The notes under the pieces are model-generated. The model was not told where the DNA came from, searched no databases, and saw nothing but the letters and a program-made list of their open reading frames with translations. Of a stretch of DNA of 64,000 nt, positions 29,818 through 44,315 are shown piece after piece. Position 1 is the stretch's first letter. Every line of letters starts with the position of its first letter. This DNA is from Hyphomicrobiales bacterium (lineage in GTDB: Bacteria; Pseudomonadota; Alphaproteobacteria; Rhizobiales; JAJFHR01), in contig JAJFHS010000053.1 of the NCBI GenBank assembly GCA_021775475.1, forward strand, positions 108,271-172,270, written 5' to 3'. Position numbers and translations under genes: made by a program.

Positions 29818-31371
29818 ATGGCCGGAAAAACAGTCACCGATTTCGTAATGGAAGAGCAGGAGAACGATTTGTCCCCTGCCCACCGGGGCATTATTCTTTT
29901 TGCCGTCATGTTGAGTGCCACACTTTACAGCACCACAATACTGCTGGTGGCAAGCATCCTGCCGCAATTACAGGGAGCCATGTCTGCTACTGCAGATGAA
30001 ATTTCCTGGACCATGACCTTCAACATTCTGGCCACTGCTGTGGCCACGCCGATGGCGGGCTGGCTGGCAGCCCGGCTTGGCATGCGGCGATTGATGCTGT
30101 GGTCGGTTTTAGGATTTTCTGTTGCCACCTATTTTTGCGGCACCGCTAATTCATTAACAGAGCTGATTTTCTGGCGCGTGGTTCAAGGAGCGTTTGGGGC
30201 ACCGATAACCCCGATTACTCAAACCATTCTGCTTGATACTTTTCCAAAACGCCAGCACGGCACAGCGATTGGCCTGTTTGGCATAGGCGTAGTGCTGGGC
30301 GCCTTTCTGGGGCCAGTTGTTGGTGGTGTCATGGTCGAGCTTACCAGTTGGCGCTGGGCATTTTATATTCTTTCACCCGTGGGTGCGTTTGCCTTTATGG
30401 CGTTGTGGTTGTCGCTGCCGCGAGACACTTCAATTTCGCATGTCCGGCTCGACTGGAGCGGCTTTTTGCTTCTGTCAATCACGATTGCCAGTACGCAGCT
30501 TGTCTTATCGCGTGGCCAGCGTCTCGACTGGTTCGATTCCAGCGAGATTTTAGTAGAAGCCTTTCTGGCGGTGATTGCGGGGTATTTATTCATAATACAT
30601 AGCTTTACTGCAAAGAAGCCATTCATCAATCTGCGTCTTCTGAAAAACAGAAATTACGCTCTTGGTCTGGTGCTGGTGTTCATTTACGGCATGTTGAACT
30701 TCACTCCGATGGTTGTTCTGCCTTCGTTGCTACGTGATCAGGCCGGTTTCCCGGATTCGCTGATTGGTTACGTTTTGGGCTCACGCGGTTTCGGGGCCAT
30801 GATCGGTTTTTTTACTGCCATGTTCATCGGTCAGAAATACCCGCGAGAATCGATGCTGGCGGGATTTGCCACACTTATGATTGCGGGAGCATGGCTTACG
30901 ACGATTGATCTTAACGTTACCTTTCTGGAACTGGTCCTCAATGGCATGGTTCAGGGACTTGCTGTAGGTATCATCTGGGTGCCGATCACTATTGTCAGTT
31001 TTTCCACGCTTCCTGTTGCGGTGAGGCCTGAAACATCTGCCGTTTTTCATTTGCTGCGCAATCTCGGCTCAAGTTTTTTCATTTCCCTGACGGTTACGGA
31101 AATTGTGCGCTCCACGGCGATAAATTATGAATATATGACAGAGATGGTAACACCTTTCAGCCAGCCATTTTTATACCCCTGGGTGAGTGGGGGCTGGAAC
31201 ACGGGTAGCGTTGAATCTCTTGCCCAACTGTCAAAGGAAATAGCTCGTCAGGCAACCATGATCAGTTATCTTAATGCTTTTGGTTTTTACACCATGGCCG
31301 CCGCTGCCGCTATTCCGTTGGTATTGCTGGTGAACCCGGCCCCTAAAAAATTATCCCGAGCCCCATTTTAG
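29818..31371 (+). CDS. MFS multidrug exporter, DHA2 family (EmrB-like, 14 helices)
   Basis: 517 residues. The first helix pair ([34 protein letters not shown]) is typical of DHA2 exporters; motif A appears as [21 protein letters not shown] near 80, and motif C as [16 protein letters not shown] near 160. It should work with the divergent EmrA-like adaptor. The ATG at 29818 has no good ribosome-binding site; an in-frame ATG at 29848 is the alternative but is no better. The stop overlaps the convergent ABC ATPase end by 4 bp. Confidence 0.93.
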
Positions 31372-32123
31372 TGCAAAAGTATCTGACTTAGAAAGAGTTT
31401 TGTCCTATCATTTTTCGGGTTTGTGAAGAATTCAGCAGGAGTTGCTTCTTCGACAATCCTGCCTTCATCCATAAAAATCATTTTATCAGCCACGGTTTTC
31501 GCAAAGCCCATTTCATGGGTGACACATATCATGGTCATTCCGGTTTCAGCCAATTCTATCATGACATCCAGCACCTCTTTAATCATTTCCGGGTCCAGGG
31601 CTGATGTGGGCTCATCAAACAACATGATTTTTGGGCTCATACAAAGTGAACGGGCGATGGCAACGCGTTGTTGCTGCCCTCCCGAAAGCTGGCTGGGATA
31701 TTTACCGGCCTGTTCGGGTATGCGCACCTTTTCGAGATACCTCATGGCCAGTTTTTGGGCTTCTGTGCGGCTGATGCCGCGCGCTTTCATCGGCCCAAGC
31801 GTGCAATTATCCAACACTGATAAATGCGGAAACAGATTGAACAGCTGAAACACCATGCCGATCTCGGCACGAATTTCTGCAATTTTTCTGGTGTCATCAT
31901 CCAACCTTATGCCATCAACGATGATCTCACCTGTCTCATGTTCTTCCAGCCGGTTGATGCAACGAATGAGAGTGGATTTGCCTGAACCCGACGGCCCGCA
32001 GATAACCACTCTTTCACCCTGATAAACATCCAGGTTGATATCGTACAAAGCCTGAAAATCGCCAAACATCTTATTGACGCCTCTCAATTGGATCATGGCT
32101 TGCTTGCCTGTGCCGTCGCTCAT
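31368..32123 (-). CDS. Polar amino acid ABC transporter ATP-binding protein (GlnQ/HisP-like)
   Basis: 251 residues. Walker [10 protein letters not shown] near 43, Q-loop [18 protein letters not shown] near 90, signature [16 protein letters not shown] near 143, Walker [15 protein letters not shown] near 167. Last gene of the second polar amino acid importer (binding protein, two permeases, ATPase), 26 bp after the permease. It has standard DEP, unlike the paralogue at 13103. Confidence 0.95.
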
Positions 32124-32149
32124 GTTTTAATCCTTAAAAAGATCACCTT

Positions 32150-33043
32150 TTAATACCTGTGAGCTCCCATACGCCGTTCGAGCCAGCCAAAGGCCTTGGC
32201 GCAAGAATAACAAACGGTGAAATACATAAAGCCGGTGAATATCCAGACTTCGAAAAAACGCTGTTCAGAAATGGCAATCTCCATAGCCAGAAATGAGAGT
32301 TCCTGGACCGAAATCAGGGCGATAAGCGATGAATCCTTGATCAGGGTTATGAATTGACCGGCCAGGGGTGGCACAACACGCTGAATGGCCTGAGGTAAAA
32401 TAATATAACGCATGATCGCAAATGGAGACAGGCCGATGGTCTGCCCGGCTTCGCGTTGTCCTTTAGGAATAACCTGAATGCCAGATCGTACAATTTCAGC
32501 GATATAAGCTGCCGACATCATAGACAGGCTGATCATGCCGGAGAGGAAATTCGTCATCAGATTGGCCGGTCCAAACATAAACTCCGCCACCGCCAGTTTT
32601 TGGGGCGAAGCGCTATAGACAAATTCATCGATGCCAAGTATTGGCATGATCTGGCTACTGATGAAAAAATAAAACAGAAACAAAAAAGGTACCGGCGGTA
32701 TATTGCGGATAAACTCCACATAAGCCCAACTCACCAATCTGGGTAGTAAACGGTCGCTGGTCCGCGCAATACCGAGAATGACACCCAAAATTGAGGAAAC
32801 CAGCATCGCCCAGATGGCAACGCGAATGGTTGCAATCATTCCCTTGATCAGCAGGTTGGGCACAAGGGATGCGGTTTTTTCATCCCAGCGAAACAAGTAT
32901 GTTGGGATAACAGACCAGTCCCATTTATAGATCAGGACAAAATTTACCCGGTAGGCGATAAAACCAACAAGGGCAACCACCGAGGTCAGAACAATGACAT
33001 CGAGAACTCCGATTGTAAGTTTAGCAGATTTTTGCTTCACCAT
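32150..33043 (-). CDS. Polar amino acid ABC transporter permease (second)
   Basis: 297 residues from ATG 33043 (MVKQKSAK), which comes one base after the upstream stop (TGATATG); the track start at 33145 overlaps the neighbour by 101 bp and is rejected. First membrane helix LDVIVLTSVVALVGFIAYRVNFVLIY, a longer N-terminal module as in the AapM-type permeases, then FIRNIPPVPFLFLFYFFIS and the coupling loop QREAGQTIGLSPFAIMRYIILPQ near residue 210. It pairs with the first permease. Confidence 0.92.
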   Translation of the reverse strand: MVKQKSAKLTIGVLDVIVLTSVVALVGFIAYRVNFVLIYKWDWSVIPTYLFRWDEKTASLVPNLLIKGMIATIRVAIWAMLVSSILGVILGIARTSDRLLPRLVSWAYVEFIRNIPPVPFLFLFYFFISSQIMPILGIDEFVYSASPQKLAVAEFMFGPANLMTNFLSGMISLSMMSAAYIAEIVRSGIQVIPKGQREAGQTIGLSPFAIMRYIILPQAIQRVVPPLAGQFITLIKDSSLIALISVQELSFLAMEIAISEQRFFEVWIFTGFMYFTVCYSCAKAFGWLERRMGAHRY

Positions 33044-33044
33044 A

Positions 33045-33890
33045 TCACCGGCCCCGCCCGATACGTCGTTCCAACACCCCGACCAGTGTCGAAAGGGTAA
33101 TGGTGACCACAAGATACATGGCGCCAATAGTGAACCAGATTTCAAAGCTCATGAATGTATCGCCAATCAGGTTACGGGCTTCCGTTGTTAATTCGAATAC
33201 CGCCACAAAACTGAGTATGGCTGAGTGCTTGACCAGATTAACCAATATCCCGGTGAGCGGCGGAAGCATCAGGGGCACGGCCTGGGGCAGAATAACGTAG
33301 ATGTAGGTTTTAGCTTTACTGAGTCCGACCGTCGAGCTTGCCTCCCATTGGCCGCGAGGCACCGAATTGATGCCGGCACGGATAATTTCGGATGCAAACG
33401 AGCCTTCAAAAAATGCCAGCGCCAATATGCCGGTCCATAACGGATTGTTGATACCGAGTATGGGCTGAAGCACAAAATAGAAGATTGACACTTGGACCAG
33501 AAGGGGAGTGTTTCTGATTGTTTCGAGGTAGGTTCTGGCAAGGACCTGTCCGGCGAAAGAGTCTGACAGCCGCAGGATGGCGGTAATCAGGCCGATAATC
33601 AGTGTCAGCACCATTCCCCAGGCGGCAATCTCCAGGGTTACAAACATTCCGTTTATTAATGGCCCCCAGATGAGTTCACCATCAATGATCCGGTAAAAAT
33701 ATTTTGGTAATCGATACCATTGCCAGCGATAGTCCATTGCCGCTGCACTGCGCCAGGTTATCCAGACCACAAACGCTATAAGCGCAATGAACTGGAGGAA
33801 GTCGAACGTTCTCGATTTCCACCAGCGCACCTTGCGCCTGTTGAGTTTTTTCCCGGAATTAGCGCTCTGGGCCACATCAATAGCAGGCAT
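33045..33890 (-). CDS. Polar amino acid ABC transporter permease (first)
   Basis: 281 residues. Basic N-terminus, first helix FLQFIALIAFVVWITW, then permease core with TIRNTPLLVQVSIFYFVLQP and coupling loop QWEASSTVGLSKAKTYIYVILPQ near 195. The extended first part with a periplasmic YRWQWYRLPKYFY region resembles AapQ-like permeases of general amino acid importers. It follows the binding protein after 47 bp. Confidence 0.92.
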   Translation of the reverse strand: MPAIDVAQSANSGKKLNRRKVRWWKSRTFDFLQFIALIAFVVWITWRSAAAMDYRWQWYRLPKYFYRIIDGELIWGPLINGMFVTLEIAAWGMVLTLIIGLITAILRLSDSFAGQVLARTYLETIRNTPLLVQVSIFYFVLQPILGINNPLWTGILALAFFEGSFASEIIRAGINSVPRGQWEASSTVGLSKAKTYIYVILPQAVPLMLPPLTGILVNLVKHSAILSFVAVFELTTEARNLIGDTFMSFEIWFTIGAMYLVVTITLSTLVGVLERRIGRGR

Positions 33891-33937: not shown

Positions 33938-34765
33938 TTATTTTACCTTGTCTTTCCAATCCCGGTTTTTGAACCACTTGTCGTGGGTCTTTTGCAACCA
34001 GCCATCCAACTCACGATACAGGATCCAATTGTTGAAGAAATTAAGCCCGTCCGGGTCGCCTTTGCGCACGGCAAATGCTGAAGCAGACGGATCCCACGGT
34101 CCTGTTCCAAAGGGATTAAAAAGCACCTCGGGATTATCAATCACATAGTAGGTGGGCTTGGGCTCTGAGGTTAGAAAGGCGTGTGCGTTGCCATTCAAAA
34201 CATCCTGAAGTGCCTGTGCATCATCATCAAACTGGCGAAGTTTGGCTTTTGGAAACAATCGCGCGACGGTCTCTCCCGGTGCGGTTGCGCGTTTAATCGT
34301 CAGCGTTACGTTAGGGTTATTCCAGTCTTCAAGTGTCTTGAGGCCATCTTTTTCAGCAAGTTTTTTGTTGGCGGCCATACCGACTTTCAAAAAAGCATAG
34401 GGCCGTGAGAAATTGACCGTCAGGTTGCGCTTGGGCTTAATCACCATGCCGGTAATGATGACGTCAAACTTTTTAGCCAGAAGAGCTGGTATGATGCCAT
34501 CCCAGGCCGTTGGCACAAAGACCACCTCAACCCCCATATCCTTGGCAAGTTGTCGGCTCACGTCAATTTCGAAACCGATCAGGCTGCCATCTTTCGCGCG
34601 CATCGACCATGGGACAAATGTGGACAGGCCAACCACCAGTTTTCCGCGCTTGAGAATATCATCGACAACACTTTGGGCCGCTGCCTGATTTGCAAAACTC
34701 AGCAGCGCTCCCAACATCAAGGTTGTGGCCACCAGCACACTCATAATTTTTTGTTTGAATAACAT
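33938..34765 (-). CDS. Polar amino acid ABC transporter substrate-binding protein
   Basis: 275 residues, SBP_bac_3 family. Signal peptide (SVLVATTLMLGALLSFANQAAAQ, cleavage after AAA-Q region near 30). Mature opening ILKRGKLVVGLSTFVPWSMRAKDGSLIGFEIDV and ligand loop DVIITGMVIKPKRNLTVNFSRPY are typical. It lacks the cysteine pair of the binding protein at 15605. First gene of the importer, divergent from RidA; the shared region holds a palindrome. The neighbouring catabolic genes suggest an unusual amino acid or cyclic amine as ligand. Confidence 0.92.
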   Translation of the reverse strand: MLFKQKIMSVLVATTLMLGALLSFANQAAAQSVVDDILKRGKLVVGLSTFVPWSMRAKDGSLIGFEIDVSRQLAKDMGVEVVFVPTAWDGIIPALLAKKFDVIITGMVIKPKRNLTVNFSRPYAFLKVGMAANKKLAEKDGLKTLEDWNNPNVTLTIKRATAPGETVARLFPKAKLRQFDDDAQALQDVLNGNAHAFLTSEPKPTYYVIDNPEVLFNPFGTGPWDPSASAFAVRKGDPDGLNFFNNWILYRELDGWLQKTHDKWFKNRDWKDKVK

Positions 34766-34875
34766 TTCTATTTCTCCCCTTTTTCTCTATCGTTATCTTA
34801 ATTTTTGGAAAAATTGATTACCTTCCCCGCACCCAACATTACAACCTTATAGCAATTGCAAAACAGAGGACAGTG

Positions 34876-34890
34876 CGAATATAATATTCG
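34876..34890. promoter_or_regulatory. Palindrome in the divergent importer/RidA promoter
   Basis: CGAATAT-A-ATATTCG, perfect 7-bp arms about a single base, 43 bp before the RidA start and 111 bp before the binding-protein start. The XRE-cupin regulator encoded at 36418 is the nearest candidate binder. Confidence 0.5.
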
Positions 34891-34932
34891 TACCAAAAGG
34901 CATTTTGAAAATGATTATGGAAGGAAGAACCT

Positions 34933-35325
34933 ATGCGCAAACTGGTATCCAGTAACCGGCCATGGGAAGATCAGGTTGGCTATTCGCGTGCGATACGCGT
35001 GGGCCCTGTAATTGAAATTGGACTGACCTCACCTTCAGCCCCTGATGGGACAATCCTGCATGCGGGCGATGTTTACAAACAGACAGTCGAGTGCCTGAAA
35101 ATTGTTGCAGATGCTCTTGAAGAGGCCGGAGCATCTTTCGATGATGTCATTAAAACCAACATAATGATGCTCGATACAACAAAGTGGGCGGATGCCGGTC
35201 GCGCCCATGCCGAATTTCTTGGCCATGTTCGACCGGCCCTGTCTTTCATTGGTGTAAGCGGGTTCTTTGACCCGCTGATCGAGCTTGAAGTTGAGGTCAC
35301 TGCCTATATTGAAAACGACAATTAA
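34933..35325 (+). CDS. RidA/YjgF-family protein
   Basis: 130 residues. Family features: SSNRPWEDQVGYSRAIRVGPVIEIG at the start, GDVYKQTVECLKIVADALEEAGASFDDVIKTNIMMLD in the middle, and RPALSFIGVSGFFDPLIELEVEVTAYIE at the end. The usual catalytic arginine of RidA imine deaminases (in the phrase PxRxxV near residue 105) is replaced here by a hydrophobic stretch (ALSFIGV), so this is probably not a classical 2-aminoacrylate deaminase but one of the Rid subfamilies found in catabolic clusters. RBS GGAAGGAAG is strong. It is divergent from the importer and convergent with the M29/NicX-like gene. Confidence 0.85.
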   Translation: MRKLVSSNRPWEDQVGYSRAIRVGPVIEIGLTSPSAPDGTILHAGDVYKQTVECLKIVADALEEAGASFDDVIKTNIMMLDTTKWADAGRAHAEFLGHVRPALSFIGVSGFFDPLIELEVEVTAYIENDN

Positions 35326-35335
35326 CCAGCCCGGG

Positions 35336-36421
35336 TTAACCGGTTATTCCAATTTCATCTGATGGGTTCTTATATAAGTCCTTCAGTTCCGGCCACTTTT
35401 CAAGACACTTTGCGGTTTGGGCAAAAGCCTCTGGATGAAGGCGTCCCATGTCCCATAAATCAACTCCATCTATGGAGATCGTGGGATCCAGCACCATCCA
35501 GCAAATTTCACCCGGCGCGTAATTTCCGCAGGTGTGAAAATGGAGAAAATGGGGATTGGTAAATACCGTATTGGACCACCGGTCCGGGTCCAGGCTGGCT
35601 GCAACTTTATAGGCACAGCCGGGATGAATACCCGCATGCCACGAGTGCACAATATCGCGTTCGATACCAAATTCTTCGGCGATCTTGTCATAATGCTGCT
35701 GCACGAGACTGACCGTTTTACGATCTCCTTCAAAATTCAAAATACGCCCCGCTTCAACCTTTGCAAAGACTACCTGTTCCAGCTTAAGACAAGCTGGCTC
35801 ATATGATTTTGAACCTGTGGGTGTCAGATATCCGGCAAGGGCAATTCGTCCTGAAAACGTGTTGGCATTAATGGGTGCCGGCACCCCAAGTGGAAAGCGC
35901 AAAACAGATACATCAACCGGGTTTTCAACTTCGCCTTTGGAAATCTGGCCGGCATAGTCTGTGCCAAGGGGACAGGTGATCTCAATATGTTGCGCCGTCA
36001 ACAGGGCAGTATTGACAGCTTCTTTCATGGCATAAAGTGCCTGGTGTGAGGCTCTGCCATAGGATGACGCCAGCATTTCAGCGTTACGCGCATAACACAT
36101 CACACTCATTTTTCCGGGTGGTAATTTGGAAAATCTATCCTGATCGCCAATGCGGGAAAAAAATATTGTATAATCATGTTGGGCGATTGCTTGTGTCAGG
36201 CCTGAACTCAAATGATTTTCCGGTCTGCCCACTTCAAGCTGGCTTACCACAGCCCCCATGTCTATTGCTTCATTTGCCACCGCACTGGATACTTCAGCAT
36301 CATACCAGCCAAGATCGGGCGTTTCCGAGATTATCAAAACGGTATCACCACATTTGATACCTGCGCAATTTACAAGCAGGTTTCGGGCACCTTTTGAAAG
36401 CTTGCCAGAAAATTCCATCAC
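35336..36421 (-). CDS. M29 aminopeptidase/NicX-like metalloenzyme
   Basis: 361 residues. The layout recalls the M29 (AmpS/AmpT) fold and the related non-haem iron enzyme 2,5-dihydroxypyridine dioxygenase NicX, which has about 350 residues. Readable parts are an N-terminal alpha/beta domain (CGDTVLIISETPDLGWYDAEV), IEITCPLGTDYAG near 170, NFEGDR near 255, and a His-rich C-terminal part HSWHAGIHPGC and PHFLHFHTCGNY near 290-325 followed by DPTISIDGVDLWDMGRLHP. The histidines could be metal ligands. Start overlaps the XRE-cupin stop by 4 bp. Ring cleavage or peptide hydrolysis cannot be separated by eye; the oxygenase-like and RidA neighbours make ring cleavage attractive. Confidence 0.6.
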   Translation of the reverse strand: MMEFSGKLSKGARNLLVNCAGIKCGDTVLIISETPDLGWYDAEVSSAVANEAIDMGAVVSQLEVGRPENHLSSGLTQAIAQHDYTIFFSRIGDQDRFSKLPPGKMSVMCYARNAEMLASSYGRASHQALYAMKEAVNTALLTAQHIEITCPLGTDYAGQISKGEVENPVDVSVLRFPLGVPAPINANTFSGRIALAGYLTPTGSKSYEPACLKLEQVVFAKVEAGRILNFEGDRKTVSLVQQHYDKIAEEFGIERDIVHSWHAGIHPGCAYKVAASLDPDRWSNTVFTNPHFLHFHTCGNYAPGEICWMVLDPTISIDGVDLWDMGRLHPEAFAQTAKCLEKWPELKDLYKNPSDEIGITG

Positions 36422-37014
36422 CGGGGCTCCGCTTGTACATTAATAAAAGTGAATGTTTCAGAAATCACTTCTTTAAACCCGTGATTGAGTTCAGCATCCA
36501 GACTTAGACTGTCATTTGCCTTGAGCGTAATTTCTCGTTGCCCATACCCGTATATCGCCTCACCTTGAACCACGTAGATAAACACCACCCCATGTCCGAC
36601 ATAGACGGGCGGGCGCCCGGTCTGGCGCGTTAAAGTCACTATGTGGGCTTCAAACTGCAAATCGCGACGCGCGTGCATGGCAAGATTGATAAAATCATGG
36701 GCATGATTGTCGACAACTCGAGTGGACTTCAATCCCTTGCCATCTATTACATGGGTAAAATCCGTCTGGCCTGAGGCAGTTTCACGAAACAAACTGACCA
36801 AAGGCACGTCAAGTGCCAGACTGAGTGCATTAAGGGTGGAGATTGAAGGGGAAACCTGGCCATTTTCAATTCGACTGACCATTGCCGCCGAGACGGCAGA
36901 AACTTCCGCCAGCTGTCTGGCTGTTAACCCTGAGGCCTCACGTAAATCACGCAATGCAGTTCCGATTGCCAGATCGATTGCCCCGCTTTGGGGACTAAGG
37001 TTTTTATCACCCAC
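36418..37014 (-). CDS. XRE-family regulator with C-terminal cupin domain
   Basis: 198 residues from the GTG at 37014, which follows the preceding stop by 4 bp; the track ATG at 37113 would overlap the neighbour by 95 bp. Neither start has a clear ribosome-binding site. HTH at about 15-70: LRDLREASGLTARQLAEVSAVSAAMVSRIENGQVSPSISTLNALSLAL. The cupin part (about 110-190) contains HGVVFIYVVQGEAIYGYG and LNHGFKEV. Regulators of this build control small catabolic or polyamine-type operons through ligand binding in the cupin barrel. It is embedded in the operon AhpD-like / oxygenase / XRE-cupin / M29-like and likely regulates it and the importer. Confidence 0.85.
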   Translation of the reverse strand: MGDKNLSPQSGAIDLAIGTALRDLREASGLTARQLAEVSAVSAAMVSRIENGQVSPSISTLNALSLALDVPLVSLFRETASGQTDFTHVIDGKGLKSTRVVDNHAHDFINLAMHARRDLQFEAHIVTLTRQTGRPPVYVGHGVVFIYVVQGEAIYGYGQREITLKANDSLSLDAELNHGFKEVISETFTFINVQAEPR

Positions 37015-37018
37015 TGAT

Positions 37019-37984
37019 TTAACTTTTACGATAGGAAAACGCTTTGTTAAATCGCCAGACAAGATAGTCACCACAGGTAATCGGCTCTTCTTTAGCCGCG
37101 TAATCTGCTCCATATATCTCGTTAGCGCTGATCAGCGTATCAGGGTCGGGATCATACGCCAGGACTAATGAAAGCCGCTCGCGCCCGGAGCTGTTTACCA
37201 CACGGTGCGGGGTTGATTTATAAGCACCATCTGTCCAGCGGGCCAGAAGATCGCCAACATTGACCACCAATGTTCCTTCAATTGGCGGAGCGTGAACCCA
37301 CTCGCCATCAAGGGTCTGCACCTGCAAGCCTCCCACAGAATCCTGGCACAATACGGTAAGGACACCAAAATCCGTATGCGGCCCGACACCAAACTGCTTT
37401 TCACCCAGATCTTCACGCTGTTGGGGATAATAGACAAATGAAGCGCGGCTGAGGGGTTTGGAACTGGTTTGTAAAAAATATTTCTCATCAAGGCCAAGAC
37501 CCAGGGCAAAGCCACGCATCAGATGATGGGCCACAACATGTGCATGATCAAAGTATTCCATCGCGTGTTGTTGCAACTCGGGAAGAAAAACCGGCCACTG
37601 ATTTTGACCCCGCAATGGATGATCATCAGGGGTATTGCCAGCCCTATCCTGAAATCCCCAGATAAAGCTCTCCTTGAGATCCGGCGCAACATCATCCTGC
37701 ATTTTTGCCAGCCCTTGTCCCAACCACCCCCGATGACGGGCTGAAATTTTCACTGTTGCTTTATCGTCATTAGATCTGCGAAAAAAATCCAGTGCATTGG
37801 CGCGCGCAGCTTCTATGGTTTTTTCAGGAATACCGTGACCTTTAATGTAAATAAATCCCAGGTTCTGGCTGGTTGAATGTAACAACTGAGCTACTGATCG
37901 CGGATCACTGCCATCAATCAGGCGACTAATATCCACTACAGGAATAATTTCCGCATCAAGTTGCTTTGCCTGCGCATAGACCAT
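37019..37984 (-). CDS. Isopenicillin-N-synthase-like 2-oxoglutarate/Fe(II) dioxygenase
   Basis: 321 residues from the ATG at 37984 (MVYAQAKQ), chosen because GAAGGA precedes it at 7 bases; the track start at 38017 has none. N-terminal DIOX_N part IPVVDISRLIDG and FIYIKGHGIPE near 45-55. The catalytic jelly roll has the metal motif HTDFGVLTVL near residue 200 and the distal HRVVNSSGRERLSL near 255 providing the third histidine and the RxS motif for 2-oxoglutarate. All three metal ligands and RxS are intact. It would hydroxylate or otherwise oxidise the pathway substrate. It stands between the AhpD-like and XRE-cupin genes. Confidence 0.92.
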   Translation of the reverse strand: MVYAQAKQLDAEIIPVVDISRLIDGSDPRSVAQLLHSTSQNLGFIYIKGHGIPEKTIEAARANALDFFRRSNDDKATVKISARHRGWLGQGLAKMQDDVAPDLKESFIWGFQDRAGNTPDDHPLRGQNQWPVFLPELQQHAMEYFDHAHVVAHHLMRGFALGLGLDEKYFLQTSSKPLSRASFVYYPQQREDLGEKQFGVGPHTDFGVLTVLCQDSVGGLQVQTLDGEWVHAPPIEGTLVVNVGDLLARWTDGAYKSTPHRVVNSSGRERLSLVLAYDPDPDTLISANEIYGADYAAKEEPITCGDYLVWRFNKAFSYRKS

Positions 37985-38001
37985 TAGTTTTTCCTTCGCC
38001 A

Positions 38002-38052
38002 AACAATTGTTGCTCATAATACAATAAATTGCATGGCACGCAATAGTTTATT
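38002..38052. promoter_or_regulatory. Palindromic region before the dioxygenase gene
   Basis: Contains a perfect palindrome AACAATTGTT (38002-38011) and an imperfect inverted repeat AATAAATTGC (38023-38032) / GCAATAGTTTATT (38040-38052) that runs into the stop of the AhpD-like gene. An internal promoter/operator is possible. Low certainty. Confidence 0.3.
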
Positions 38053-38626
38053 CTTCAGTGTAATACCCGACAATATCCCCTTGTGTTGAAACGCCAAGCC
38101 CGTTCAGACACCGGTTTACGTAGTTAAAGTAACCGATAATCTGGTTGGCTTCGAGAATTTGACCATCATCAAATCCTGTATCTTTCAGGGCATCAACATC
38201 TGCTTTGATCACGTCTGCGGGGAAAAGCGTCAATTTTTCAGCATACTCAAGCAGCGCTAATTCCGCGCCACAAAAAGTGGGTTCCAATGTGCGTGTGTTC
38301 AGCGCCTTTTCAATTTCATCGGCACGCTTTTCATCGTTAATCAGATGACGGGCATTGGCCCAATGGTTCGCCAGCGAATAGCTGCACCCATTCAAAATGG
38401 AGACATAAGAGCTGATTGTTTCCTGTAGCCATGCCGGCAAGGTGTTGGCATCATCATGCAGGGCGGCGCGGTAAAGAACCACATGGCCGCGTAACGTGCT
38501 CGGCCGGAGCGAATGAACGCGCATGACATTATCCACCGTTCCATGTGGTGTACGGGCAAGCTTCAGAGCATCAAGTAATTCGTCATCAGCCTCATCATCT
38601 GAAATCATCTTTATCCAAGCAGTCAT
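38048..38626 (-). CDS. AhpD-like (carboxymuconolactone decarboxylase fold) peroxidase-related protein
   Basis: 192 residues, length typical of the peroxidase-related AhpD-like family. The active-site region near residue 78 reads SILNGCSYSLANHW, where the family normally has N-x-C-x-Y-C-x-x-x-H. The first cysteine and the histidine are present but the second cysteine is serine. Without the second thiol the usual disulfide peroxidase cycle is not possible, so a different chemistry (for example decarboxylase-like or proton-transfer) should be considered. It is the first gene of the operon with the dioxygenase, XRE-cupin and M29-like genes. Confidence 0.8.
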   Translation of the reverse strand: MTAWIKMISDDEADDELLDALKLARTPHGTVDNVMRVHSLRPSTLRGHVVLYRAALHDDANTLPAWLQETISSYVSILNGCSYSLANHWANARHLINDEKRADEIEKALNTRTLEPTFCGAELALLEYAEKLTLFPADVIKADVDALKDTGFDDGQILEANQIIGYFNYVNRCLNGLGVSTQGDIVGYYTEE

Positions 38627-39321: not shown

Positions 39322-40689
39322 TCACTTCACCTTGAATATCTCAACGGCATCGACAAAAACCAACGCCTCTCCATCGGCTTTATTGTACTTTCCAAGCAGC
39401 ATGGTAAATTTGCCCGGACTGCGCAATGAGGTCAGCGGTTTGGTGTTCTGCTTGATCTCCGTTGTTTTTCCATCCAGAACACCCGAAATCTCAATAGCTC
39501 CTGTGTATTCTCTGCCCCTCTTGGACAAAATCATTTTAGTCTTTGAATTCGCTACAAATTCTATCCAGTTTTTATACTCTTGAGGGTTGAAATTACCACA
39601 AATATCAGCGCCCTTGCCGCCGACAAGGGTGTTAAATACCGCCTCCTTGCCGCGCGACCTTTTAACAAGTTGGATTTTTGCACCGTTGCAGGTTGAAGAG
39701 CCGGTAAATGTATAAAAAGTGAGGCCGAGATAATTTTGTTCGTCCTTACGCAAGGCAATCGAAAACTGATCTTTGCCGGTTTTCAGCTCTGCGATCAGGT
39801 TGACTTCAATGTCCCAATCTCCTTTGGGCAGTTTTTCGCCAAGAGAGACAAAGTTGTCTGAATCAGCATTGTAAAGTGTGGCAAGCTGGCTGGACAGCAT
39901 TAGCAGAGACCCTTCTTCGACCACATATGATTCCGGGTTTGGATTGGTCACTGACCAGCTTTCGCCAAGAGCCTCTCCGTCAAAATTATCCAGAAAAACG
40001 CTTTCGCGCTGTGGTGCAACGGGTTGGGGTTTCGGTGCTGGTGGCGGTTCTGGTTTGTCATCGACAGCAACCTTGATAACCTCTTTTATGGCGTCGGAAA
40101 AACCCTGTGTGCTGTTGGCTGGAAAATATTTTCCACCACCATAATCAGCAATGCATTGCAACTCTGCGCGATCTTTTTTGGAGATGTCAAAGCCGACCAC
40201 GTGGACTTTGACATTAATATTTTGATTAGCCAGCCAAGAAGCGGCTGAACAGACATTGCCACCACAAGTCTCGATGCCATCAGAGATCAACACAACATAA
40301 TTTGAATCTCCCGGAGCGGTTCCGGCAAAAGCCTGTTTGGTCTGTGTCAGAGCATAGGAAATCGGCGTCTTGCCAAGCGGTGTCAACCGGGAAAGAGCTG
40401 CTGAAGTGCTGGAGCCAGCACCTATAGGCGAAATCAGCTCAACATCTTCGCAGGATCCTTTTTGGCGATGGCCATATGCCATAACACCCGCCTTTGCGCC
40501 TTTGGGAAGATCACCAATAAGACGTGTAAGAACATTTTTGGCTGTGCTCATTTTGGCAACACCATCCACCTGCCCCCACATGGAGCCTGATGAATCAAGC
40601 ACAAAAAGTATATTGGTTTTCGCCTGTGCACTGACAGCCGTCGATATCATGAGCGCTGCAGCTAAAATAGTTGTTATAGATTTACTCAT
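39322..40689 (-). CDS. Exported von Willebrand factor A-domain protein
   Basis: 455 residues. Signal peptide ending SAQA near 24. vWA domain at about 25-205 with a complete MIDAS: DSSGSMWG near 32, T in GKTPISYAL near 103, and D in LISDGIETCGG near 136. A proline-rich linker (PEPPPAPKPQPVAPQ) near 220 leads to a C-terminal beta-rich domain (DNFDGEALGESWSV to the end) that looks like a concanavalin/LamG-like or glycan-binding sandwich. Two cysteines flank the SDG loop and may form a disulfide. Metal-dependent binding of a partner outside the inner membrane is expected. It belongs to the exported-protein operon, 135 bp after the coiled-coil protein gene. Confidence 0.88.
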   Translation of the reverse strand: MSKSITTILAAALMISTAVSAQAKTNILFVLDSSGSMWGQVDGVAKMSTAKNVLTRLIGDLPKGAKAGVMAYGHRQKGSCEDVELISPIGAGSSTSAALSRLTPLGKTPISYALTQTKQAFAGTAPGDSNYVVLISDGIETCGGNVCSAASWLANQNINVKVHVVGFDISKKDRAELQCIADYGGGKYFPANSTQGFSDAIKEVIKVAVDDKPEPPPAPKPQPVAPQRESVFLDNFDGEALGESWSVTNPNPESYVVEEGSLLMLSSQLATLYNADSDNFVSLGEKLPKGDWDIEVNLIAELKTGKDQFSIALRKDEQNYLGLTFYTFTGSSTCNGAKIQLVKRSRGKEAVFNTLVGGKGADICGNFNPQEYKNWIEFVANSKTKMILSKRGREYTGAIEISGVLDGKTTEIKQNTKPLTSLRSPGKFTMLLGKYNKADGEALVFVDAVEIFKVK

Positions 40690-40824
40690 TTTTCTTTTCC
40701 TCCCTGGTGCAAAAACTTGTCATCATCGGTTCAGAATTTTCATCTGCGCCTACAACTGAGAATGTTACGGTAACTGTATCAACCAGATTGTCGATACCAG
40801 TGATCTTTTCACAGCCTAAACAAA

Positions 40825-42978
40825 CTATCGTCGTCGCGATTTTACTGTAACGGTAATCTTTAAATTGCTTTCATTTGAGGTTGCCAGCAAATCCACTCCG
40901 GCCCGCGGCAAGACAAACTCCAATGGTCTGGCCCGCGACAGGTCGACATCACCAAGTTTCATGTTTATACGCGCACGTCGCAGGTAGCGTCGGCTGGACG
41001 GTGCCGTCTTCAGTTTGAATCTGTAGCCTTGGGCAGCCACAAACGGCTCATTCCTGTCAATATAAAACTCAATGCTTGGGATAAGTGGTAATCTTCTTGT
41101 GGTCTGCTCAATTTCTCGGTCCAAATCCACAACACGCTTTTGCAGTTGTATGTAAATCATGGTGACTGGTCTTAAAAATTGCCCGATGTCATTGACCTGA
41201 ATTATGGCTGCTGCCAAATCTCTCATTGGCTCGTCCGTGAAGTATCTGTCTGCAAATTCTTTAGAAGCCTCTATTAAAAAGGATTGTAACATCTCAAGTA
41301 ACACTTCAGTCCTTAGATTTGTTATCCCTTTGCGAGAACCTTGTCCCAATCCCAAACTTAGGCTTGCCTTTTGTAAATTCTTCAACATAAAATTAGCGGT
41401 CAAAGGGCCTACTTTGCGTTCAAAAACGGCGCTCGCAGCGATCTTTTCCAGTAATTTTATTGTACCACGCCGGGTCAGTCCTTTAGTTGTTTCTGCACTA
41501 CCAGTTTTCCCAGTTTCTACAGCAGCAGCCTTGATGTTGAATTCCCTGAACAAGTTTTCCATTGAATTACGATAGGTATAATCACCAAAAAACACTTCCC
41601 CCATAGCGGCTGCAAACACTCCGCCAACACCCCCGGTAGCCCTGGCCCGAAATATGGTTAAGAATTTCGATCCAAGATTGATCATCATTTGAGCATTCAG
41701 TGACCGGCCTGTTGCAGCGGTGGATTTATCCAGCGCTTGAAGAAATTCCGCTTGCGCTTTCATTGCACTTTCAAGCGCTGATTCTCGTTCAGAGCGAATT
41801 GTTTTATAGGTTTGAAGCAATTTCCGATACCGCTCCAGCAGGTCTGACCGGACCTTGACAGGTTGATCCCACTTGCCGGAAAAATCATCACTGGCCAACG
41901 TATCAAACCGCGAGGACAACAAATTGTTCAATCGAATAATTCGTTCCAGTTTCCGGGCCCGTTCCTCCAGAAATTGTGATAGTTGCTGGTCAAGCCGGGT
42001 ATATAATTCGGACCGGCGTTTTATTTTTCGATCTTCAGCCGCGCGTCGTCGCGCACTGTCTTTAAGGACAAGCTCAAAATCGGGATCCACGCGATCCGAC
42101 AGGCGTACGATTTTTAATTTCGCATCGTTGATTTCCCGCGCCAGACGCTTTTTGGTTCGCCGGGAGGCGCCGGGTTTGGTTTTTTGTCTTTCCCAGCTTG
42201 TTATTTTTGTTTTGATCTTACTAATCTGCCGCAAACCTTCGGCATCCGGGCCAGTTACCGAGATGCCGGTTTTTCGTTCGATTGTTTTTGCTTCTTTCGC
42301 AACGCGCCTGCGTTCATTGTCTTCGAATTGAAGCCGCTCGTTGCTGGCCTTATCCAGTTTTTCTTTAGCCAGGTTTAGTTCTTGAATAAGGATTCTCGGC
42401 GTATTGCGATTATAATCATTTGTAATGGTATTAAGTTCTGATTTTACTTTGCTAAAAATCAGGTCCACGCCGGAAATTGAAAACCTCACTGGCCGAATGA
42501 CAATCGCAGTGGTTTTATAGAAGCGATTACTTTCTATAATTCTGTTACTGTTTTGCGCCAATACAATTTGTGTGCGGCCCGGCCAAATCCGTAATCCGGG
42601 ACCATTCGGGTCATTAAAAGGTTCGATTTGCGCATGTTTGCGATAACCGGCATCGATGATGCCCTGCCGGTCCTGCGCCGACAACTCGCGATCCAGATTT
42701 TGAGCCTCATCACGCCATACTTTCGGCAGATCATCAGGGACCGGCTTATATTGCACGACAAATTTTCCCTGAACGAAACTGCCTTTATATGTGCGGTCAA
42801 TACTTATTCGTGTGAACTTGAAATCAGAACCCTCATGAGCGATCGTAAATCTCTGGTTATTGCCGGATGCCCAAACACCGCTGTAGTCAATTTCTTGCGC
42901 ACTGACGGGGGATATAAGAAACAGACAGAAGAAAAGGGCGGCCGACGCGCTGGATTGAAATTTTTTTGTAAGAACCAT
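40825..42978 (-). CDS. Exported coiled-coil protein of unknown function
   Basis: 717 residues; no family recognised. Signal peptide (ASAALFFCLFLISPVSAQ). Residues about 28-140 form a beta-rich domain beginning IDYSGVWASGNNQRFTIAHEG, lipocalin-like in flavour. Residues about 190-400 are highly charged with strong heptad character (for example ELNLAKEKLDKASNERLQFEDNERRR and RRAAEDRKIKRRSELYTRLDQQLSQFLEERARKLERI), a long coiled coil. A glycine/alanine-rich hydrophobic patch (ARATGGVGGVFAAAMGEVFFGDY) near 455 may be a membrane-interacting segment. A beta-rich C-terminus (YRFKLKTAPSSRRYLRRARINMKLGDVDLSRARPLEFVLPRAG) follows. It starts 4 bp after the upstream Cys-repeat gene. Confidence 0.75.
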   Translation of the reverse strand: MVLTKKFQSSASAALFFCLFLISPVSAQEIDYSGVWASGNNQRFTIAHEGSDFKFTRISIDRTYKGSFVQGKFVVQYKPVPDDLPKVWRDEAQNLDRELSAQDRQGIIDAGYRKHAQIEPFNDPNGPGLRIWPGRTQIVLAQNSNRIIESNRFYKTTAIVIRPVRFSISGVDLIFSKVKSELNTITNDYNRNTPRILIQELNLAKEKLDKASNERLQFEDNERRRVAKEAKTIERKTGISVTGPDAEGLRQISKIKTKITSWERQKTKPGASRRTKKRLAREINDAKLKIVRLSDRVDPDFELVLKDSARRRAAEDRKIKRRSELYTRLDQQLSQFLEERARKLERIIRLNNLLSSRFDTLASDDFSGKWDQPVKVRSDLLERYRKLLQTYKTIRSERESALESAMKAQAEFLQALDKSTAATGRSLNAQMMINLGSKFLTIFRARATGGVGGVFAAAMGEVFFGDYTYRNSMENLFREFNIKAAAVETGKTGSAETTKGLTRRGTIKLLEKIAASAVFERKVGPLTANFMLKNLQKASLSLGLGQGSRKGITNLRTEVLLEMLQSFLIEASKEFADRYFTDEPMRDLAAAIIQVNDIGQFLRPVTMIYIQLQKRVVDLDREIEQTTRRLPLIPSIEFYIDRNEPFVAAQGYRFKLKTAPSSRRYLRRARINMKLGDVDLSRARPLEFVLPRAGVDLLATSNESNLKITVTVKSRRR

Positions 42979-42982
42979 GACG

Positions 42983-44245
42983 TCACCAGTCCAATGTTAT
43001 TTCAAACTTTTTCTGGCCAAGTTTTTTGGCACATGAATACAATCTATCCACATCACCCGGTCTGTACTCATTAAGCACCAGAGTGCCATTTGGGCATAGT
43101 TCAGCGACTTCTATATCAAATGTCTGCGGGGTGGACTGTATGGGCGGGACCACTTCGCCCGGGGCATAAACAGGCTGAGGGCGATCCCAAAAATTGCACT
43201 GTCCCAAGATTTTCAGTTCTTTTAATAAGCCCGCTTTTGTTACTGTGATATTCAATTTGGCCCCATATTGAAGTCCGGCCTTCTTGTTACACCAACTGGT
43301 GAGGCTATCGCCAATGGAGGGATCCTCAACCGGTCCCCTGCAATAGTTTTTGATGAAATAAAGTTTACTACCCACCTGGTAATATGCGGCTTTCCAGTTG
43401 TCTCCATACGTTTTCTTACAACGTTCAAATTGAACCTTAATTTCAACAGGTGACGGTTGTGGGTTGTTCCGTTGGTCGGTATCTCTTTTGTTGCCGGGTG
43501 TGTTTTTTCCTGTTCCTTGCGAAGATCCGGGGTTTTGTCTTTGCGGGGTTTGAGAGGCCTGTTTTTTTTGAATGCTCCCTGCTCCTGGGGCGGCGCTGTT
43601 GGTGCATTCAAAAAACTTGCCCAACTGATTTACCTTGACGTCGCCACCAGCGCAAAGTTGATTCTTTGCAATTACTCGGTGTTCCAGCCCCAAACCACCG
43701 TTCGTCCGGCGCGAACACAATGGTGAACCATCCGTGCGCCTTTGCGAGCCGAACCAGTCCGGGCCAAACTTGTTGCGGCACCAGGTATCCAGACTTTGAG
43801 GCTGGGTGTTTACAACGGGTTTAGGAATATCCACACAACTGAATTTGAAACCCTTTGCAGGTCTGCGAACCTGCCCGGTCGGGCAGGGAGTTCTTTGCCC
43901 ACCCACCTGCTGAATTGGTGATGGCGTCGGTTGCTTGAACTTTTTGGATTTCTTAACCTTTGCCTTGGGCGTGCAGGGAATAAGAGGACAGTACTCATTT
44001 TTTGGTACAACCCGGTGTTCCAGCCCCAGCCCGCCGAATGTCTTGCGCGAACACATTGGTGCATTGTCGCTCCGGCGTCTTGTTCCAAACCATTCCGCGC
44101 CATATTTTCCCGCACACCACTTCGTAAGTTCTTGGGATTGTGCTTTACTTTCATTGATTGCAGATAGAAACAACAGGGATGTTATCACCGCTCCCAGCAG
44201 TAATAGAAACCAATTTTTATTTGACAACTGGTCCTTTAGAAACAT
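42983..44245 (-). CDS. Exported protein with duplicated cysteine domain, unknown function
   Basis: 420 residues from ATG 44245 (MFLKDQLSNKN) behind AGGG; the track start at 44302 adds 19 upstream residues. Signal peptide or anchor FLLLLGAVITSLLFLSAINESKA. Two copies of a 48-residue cysteine module follow: WCAGKYGAEWFGTRRRSDNAPMC near 40-60 with GGLGLEHRV, and WCRNKFGPDWFGSQRRTDGSPLC near 160-180 with the same GGLGLEHRV, each with a further KNxxC. A Pro/Gln/Asn-rich disordered linker separates them from a third, degenerate copy (CKKTYGDNWKAAYY) and a C-terminal domain with WCNKKAGLQYGAKL. No known family. First gene of the exported-protein operon. Confidence 0.75.
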   Translation of the reverse strand: MFLKDQLSNKNWFLLLLGAVITSLLFLSAINESKAQSQELTKWCAGKYGAEWFGTRRRSDNAPMCSRKTFGGLGLEHRVVPKNEYCPLIPCTPKAKVKKSKKFKQPTPSPIQQVGGQRTPCPTGQVRRPAKGFKFSCVDIPKPVVNTQPQSLDTWCRNKFGPDWFGSQRRTDGSPLCSRRTNGGLGLEHRVIAKNQLCAGGDVKVNQLGKFFECTNSAAPGAGSIQKKQASQTPQRQNPGSSQGTGKNTPGNKRDTDQRNNPQPSPVEIKVQFERCKKTYGDNWKAAYYQVGSKLYFIKNYCRGPVEDPSIGDSLTSWCNKKAGLQYGAKLNITVTKAGLLKELKILGQCNFWDRPQPVYAPGEVVPPIQSTPQTFDIEVAELCPNGTLVLNEYRPGDVDRLYSCAKKLGQKKFEITLDW

Positions 44246-44315
44246 GATCAGCCCTAGCAAATATTGTTTCTTATGCGTGAGCGTAGCCCGAAAATAGTTC
44301 AATGGTCAAATTTAG

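Follow-up and report, generated by a model that had tools for sequence, protein, structure and literature searches.

A conserved gene cluster of mostly marine Proteobacteria pairs a NicX-fold protein with interchangeable oxygenases and may serve the catabolism of an N-methylated heterocycle

Nine neighbouring genes of a marine Hyphomicrobiales bacterium represent a cluster that is real and conserved, in 80 or more loci, and whose pathway is not recognized in any resource searched, though a 2026 paper on homarine may already describe it; the original prediction from the sequence had likewise matched it to no familiar pathway. Besides a protein with the fold of NicX, the cluster comprises an amino-acid-type ABC importer, an AhpD-like protein, a regulator and an oxygenase, which belongs to the Fe(II)/2-oxoglutarate (2OG) family in some loci and to a Rieske family in others. 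The best reading is still the one first proposed, that the cluster degrades something like an amino acid in modified or cyclic form, and the substrates named below are candidates. There is nearly an even chance, in our judgement, that the cluster degrades a small carboxylated, probably N-methylated N-heterocycle without a conventional free alpha-amino group, with homarine (N-methylpicolinate) as the leading candidate. We put forward more tentatively that the NicX-fold protein founds a new family, in which a 2-His-1-carboxylate iron site became a 3-His(-Glu) site, and which would open the ring in an undescribed pathway for a widespread marine N-methylated heterocycle, where one or the other of two unrelated oxygenases carries out the activation.

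The window, that is, the whole stretch of DNA analysed (64,000 nucleotides), contains every gene named in the original prediction, as family matches and conservation both attest. That prediction covered positions 33938-38626; the importer permeases and ATPase (31368-33890), lying outside, also belong to the block (Table 1). The rid gene lies on the plus strand and converges on the NicX-fold gene. Short overlaps had been thought to tie the enzymes and the regulator together: the regulator and the NicX-fold gene do meet in a TGATG junction at about 36418, the sole true coupled overlap, whereas the overlap of 95 nucleotides between the 2OG and regulator genes is an artefact of an over-long reading frame. 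Because homologues and sequence both point to the GTG at 37014, 4 nucleotides after the 2OG stop, the regulator start was moved there, and the probable start of permease B was placed at an ATG because of the adjacent stop of permease A (PermA).

Table 1. Features of the gene block, with positions in the window and corrected boundaries
Feature	Positions	Strand	Basis or remark
ABC importer ATPase, polar amino acid type, GlnQ/EhuA-like	31368..32123	-	families; orthologues in other loci
ABC importer permease B	32150..33043	-	ORF from 33145; likely start ATG 33043
ABC importer permease A (PermA)	33045..33890	-	family matches
Periplasmic substrate-binding protein, family 3	33938..34765	-	carboxylate Arg kept; Ser for usual ammonium-binding Asp
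Divergent intergenic region, importer operon / rid	34766..34932		promoter-like sequences in both directions, no more than chance would give here
Rid-family protein without RidA catalytic Arg	34933..35325	+	family match, motif
NicX-fold ('M29/NicX-like') putative metalloenzyme	35336..36418	-	ATG 36418 start; GTG 36421 also possible
XRE HTH + cupin regulator, 198 aa	36418..37014	-	GTG start 37014; ORF runs from 37113
Fe(II)/2OG oxygenase, IPNS-like	37019..38017	-	likely start ATG 37984; HxD...H, RxS intact
Peroxidase-related/AhpD-like (CMD superfamily) protein	38048..38626	-	single Cys, C-x-Y-S...H

A scan of genomes taken one per species retrieved 360 relatives of the NicX-fold protein, and 80 loci were kept, mostly from marine Alpha- and Gammaproteobacteria; 64 loci longer than 15 kb are counted here as full-length. 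The distribution of the gene is patchy: of the genomes sampled, 9 of 289 from the class and 8 of 101 from the order have it, and neither of two further species in the genus does; when two genomes of the same genus were compared for an empty site, the flanks did not match. An AhpD-like gene lies near the NicX-fold gene in 58 of the 64 full loci and an amino-acid-type importer in most, with an orthologue of the importer ATPase in 45/64. Gene order, which the original prediction had held up for scrutiny, proves strongly conserved. The commonest arrangement runs ATPase, permease, AhpD-like gene, 2OG gene, regulator, NicX-fold gene, and is often joined by a divergent binding protein, a GST and a creatininase-family hydrolase. 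In Hwanghaeella grinnelliae (L076), all nine window genes stand side by side, Rid included, with importer proteins 69-80% identical. Chance adjacency is rejected, as the conservation goes far beyond chance. Rid is an occasional partner, present in 5/64 full loci and of two different types. Plasmid copies in Roseobacter and Paracoccus show the same gene sets, annotated, including purU and trimethylamine methyltransferase-like genes. In the loci of SAR116 and of some roseobacters, the permease and oxygenase genes are separated by that of a second, small protein of the CMD family (112-114 aa), for example at L051 8631-8969 (SAR116) and L102 14163-14507 (Leisingera).

The NicX-fold protein has no match by sequence in Pfam, NCBIfam or the PDB, and none to the M29 family (PF02073) at E values up to 10. 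A profile of 44 rows retrieved nothing meaningful from the PDB, and a profile search across the phylum did not connect it with NicX; it took hhalign and a structure model to do so. Foldseek, run with an AlphaFold model built from the 44-sequence alignment (pLDDT 95, pTM 0.92), places NicX first (7cn3, E 1.5e-14, TM 0.61-0.64) and the M29 aminopeptidases PepS and AmpS behind (TM about 0.43-0.50); all 350 residues of 7cn3 agree with the NicX sequence used for comparison. By hhalign, the profile matches NicX relatives with an E value of 8e-5 over 283 collinear columns. A search of viral structures returned nothing. We consider the fold assignment firm. NicX, the 2,5-dihydroxypyridine 5,6-dioxygenase of Pseudomonas putida KT2440 (7cn3, 7cup), shares the fold over nearly the full length at 12-14% identity, and the window protein, which no known family model matches, likewise lies in a cluster proposed for N-heterocycle catabolism. 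With family M29 (AmpS, PepS), the likeness is distant and structural only; the NicX-fold protein is shorter than these peptidases and is embedded in an oxidative catabolic cluster.

In NicX, the iron ligands are His265, Ser302, His318 and Asp320 (PMC7910607). Only the first of these aligns, strand for strand, with an invariant His of the window protein, H261; His318 is replaced by E304 and Asp320 by C306, a position variable between C, S and A, while the place of Ser302 is uncertain in the alignment. H261 and a new pair, H293-x-H295, are invariant in 90/90 sequences, and E304 is kept in 88/90, the other two having His or Asp. His189, the substrate residue of NicX, is probably matched by the near-invariant R174. 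Conservation and alignment together suggest that the protein carries a rebuilt, His-rich metal site. Of the label 'M29/NicX-like' given at the outset, the NicX fold stands, but the protein has the HxD metal motif of neither a standard M29 enzyme nor NicX. A standard M29 aminopeptidase site, which would have spoken against the original prediction, is rejected on this motif, because the HxD ligands near the C terminus give way to E304-x-C/S/A306 while H261, H293 and H295 are invariant.

The Fe(II)/2OG oxygenase (PF03171/PF14226) displays strong sequence similarity, over most of its length, to the solved enzymes 9ovh and 6jyv. As predicted, the HxD...H and RxS motifs of IPNS-like oxygenases (thymine dioxygenase, 9ovh, 6jyv) are intact: H214-x-D216...H271 and R281-x-S283 do not vary among 28 homologues. 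By contrast with those relatives, it constitutes a conserved subfamily of its own, whose place in the cluster can be taken by a Rieske enzyme: the 64 full loci have the 2OG enzyme only (42), the Rieske enzyme only (17) or neither (5), and never both. Mapped on the tree of the NicX-fold protein, the oxygenase state requires 3 switches, against about 19 with shuffled labels; two loci with the 2OG enzyme (L079, L080) fall within a clade whose other members carry the Rieske enzyme. Fisher tests on co-occurrence within loci ignore relatedness, and counts of changes on the tree are the safer numbers. The Rieske partner is a single family with a VanA-type C-terminal domain, kept (46-58% identity) even beside the distant NicX-fold relative of Rhodobacteraceae bacterium M382. 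Among solved structures, the closest to it is dicamba O-demethylase, which acts on an aromatic carboxylate; methylxanthine N-demethylases are more distant. We read the pattern as the replacement of one activating oxygenase by another, and the interchange itself is firmly established. Two further associations recur near the core genes. A fatty-acid-desaturase-like protein and a ferredoxin are found mostly in Rieske-type loci (L101 13219-14484; also L017, L067, L092, L093, L095, L097 and L098), and a pair of intradiol dioxygenases (protocatechuate 3,4-dioxygenase-like) immediately precedes the 2OG gene, but solely in the Emcibacteraceae/Kordiimonadaceae clade (L034 7666-8340; same place in L036, L038, L041, L042, L048, L059 and L066).

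In the family of the importer's binding protein, an Arg holds the carboxylate of the ligand and an Asp usually holds its ammonium. The binding proteins of the cluster are of two types, and in all readable sequences the Arg is kept while the Asp is found in none, so that the usual pair of PAAT proteins is incomplete. The amino acid importer of the original prediction stands as to its type, without the residue expected to hold an ammonium. A plain amino-acid importer is weakened by this absence; the objection is tempered, however, because 9e2b, the closest solved relative of the window's binding protein, is reported with bound L-tryptophan and also lacks the Asp, which tryptophan therefore does not require. 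The SBP6 protein of the alternative importer is about 55% identical to SAR11_1068 (5kkw) and shows the same Asp-to-Ser change, whereas the window's own protein, of the second type, is closer to the tryptophan-bound 9e2b. SAR11_1068 was solved with methylpiperidinium sulfobetaine, a ligand that may be a crystallization additive. Both types are compatible with a carboxylate that is heterocyclic or aromatic. The AhpD-like protein is present as predicted, but without the CxxC pair of AhpD: in 70/70 loci it has C81-x-Y-S84 and a downstream His, and since Ser replaces the second Cys throughout, a disulfide peroxidase of the AhpD kind is rejected. The Rid protein, also as predicted, lacks the catalytic Arg of the RidA imine deaminases, having Leu in its place (PALS for PARS).

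Neighbouring genes give hints about the pathway. Genes of the SoxBDAG (sarcosine-oxidase) type lie near the NicX-fold gene in 17/66 loci, with 9 changes on the tree, and an N-acyl hydrolase, either a DoeB-like deacylase or a creatininase and never both, in 30/64. The window has no Sox, creatininase or deacylase gene adjacent to the cluster, and homologues are found elsewhere in the genome. We infer the substrate, the order of the steps and their chemistry from the genes, conserved residues and fold observed here, as follows. The substrate would enter through the ABC importer, and the Fe/2OG oxygenase, or elsewhere the VanA/DdmC-type Rieske monooxygenase, would oxidize the ring or the N-methyl group. 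The NicX-fold enzyme would then open the ring much as NicX does, with an N-acyl (N-formyl) compound as the product; the hydrolases found nearby in relatives (creatininase-type or DoeB/AstE-type deacylase), with the single-Cys AhpD-like protein and the GST and Rid helpers, may finish the conversion. A complex of the sarcosine-oxidase/N-methylglutamate-dehydrogenase type would remove the N-methyl group, yielding glutamate and C1 units, and the XRE-cupin protein would regulate the cluster. By carbon count, a NicX-like cut of homarine between C5 and C6 with loss of C6 would leave N-methylglutamate, and N-methylglutamate dehydrogenase is reported to take part in homarine catabolism (PMC13390433).

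Homarine is our leading guess, and a histidine-derived betaine or imidazole comes second. The latter, the main rival, appears rather unlikely: hercynine, ergothioneine, an imidazolium carboxylate or a deaminated imidazole acid would be demethylated or oxidized by the oxygenase and the Sox-type complex, the NicX-fold and AhpD-like enzymes would handle the ring or the sulfur, and the product would enter the hut pathway. Indeed, hut genes, often whole operons, stand beside the cluster in 10/67 loci (9 changes on the tree), including a Leisingera plasmid. Moreover, 2OG oxygenases 42% identical to that of the window, its nearest plasmid relatives, are encoded in or beside hut genes on an Azospirillum thermophilum plasmid (L138 7986-13016) and in Caballeronia (L139 3020-9954), each with its own amino-acid-type ABC importer and a binding protein without the ammonium Asp; no NicX-fold or AhpD-like gene was seen at these two loci. 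Both observations favour a histidine-related substrate, and a 3-His site would resemble that of thiol dioxygenases. However, most loci are without hut genes, the Rieske partner belongs with the VanA/DdmC enzymes that act on aromatic carboxylates, not with the quaternary-amine class, and co-location with hut could reflect glutamate as a shared end product. The hut linkage, which homarine does not explain, also tells against a homarine pathway, and against a reading we regard as improbable to about the same degree, namely that these genes are a homarine operon described before, in the same or a variant form, and the pathway is known. That operon is reportedly named homABCDER. A 2026 paper in Nature Microbiology, cited for the part of N-methylglutamate dehydrogenase (Mgd) (PMC13390433), reports a conserved homarine pathway in environmental bacteria; homarine catabolism has in common with the cluster its marine hosts and the implication of genes of that dehydrogenase type. 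Ruegeria pomeroyi consumes homarine quickly (PMC12817926), and the host range fits. This possible prior description is the main limit on the novelty of the cluster. In the surface ocean, labile organic nitrogen is consumed to a large extent by SAR116, roseobacters and their relatives, and for many of their N-methylated substrates the genes are still unassigned; the cluster offers named target genes, a short list of substrates and culturable hosts (Hwanghaeella grinnelliae, Paracoccus seriniphilus and Ruegeria conchae).

The function of the NicX-fold protein can also be read otherwise, as that of a metal-dependent hydrolase, amidase- or peptidase-like in the manner of M29, ring opening taking place elsewhere or not at all. 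The superfamily does include M29 peptidases, retrieved by Foldseek, the metal site differs from that of NicX as well, and in SAR116 loci (L060 11083-12321) a true M29 peptidase (PF02073) directly follows the NicX-fold gene. Yet NicX is clearly the better structural match by E value and TM-score, hhalign against a single M29 peptidase aligns 30 columns only, and the M29 HxD ligands are absent; we hold the hydrolase to be the least probable of the readings weighed here. With a recognizable fold and an apparently rebuilt metal site, the family bears on how NicX dioxygenases and M29 peptidases diverged. At the same SAR116 locus, the M29 peptidase is followed by a protein of 342 aa without a Pfam match. 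The genes that adjoin the cluster in the window, at 39322-44302, look like unrelated neighbours; they encode a protein with a von Willebrand A domain and a pair of large proteins, one of which (717 aa) has no Pfam match.
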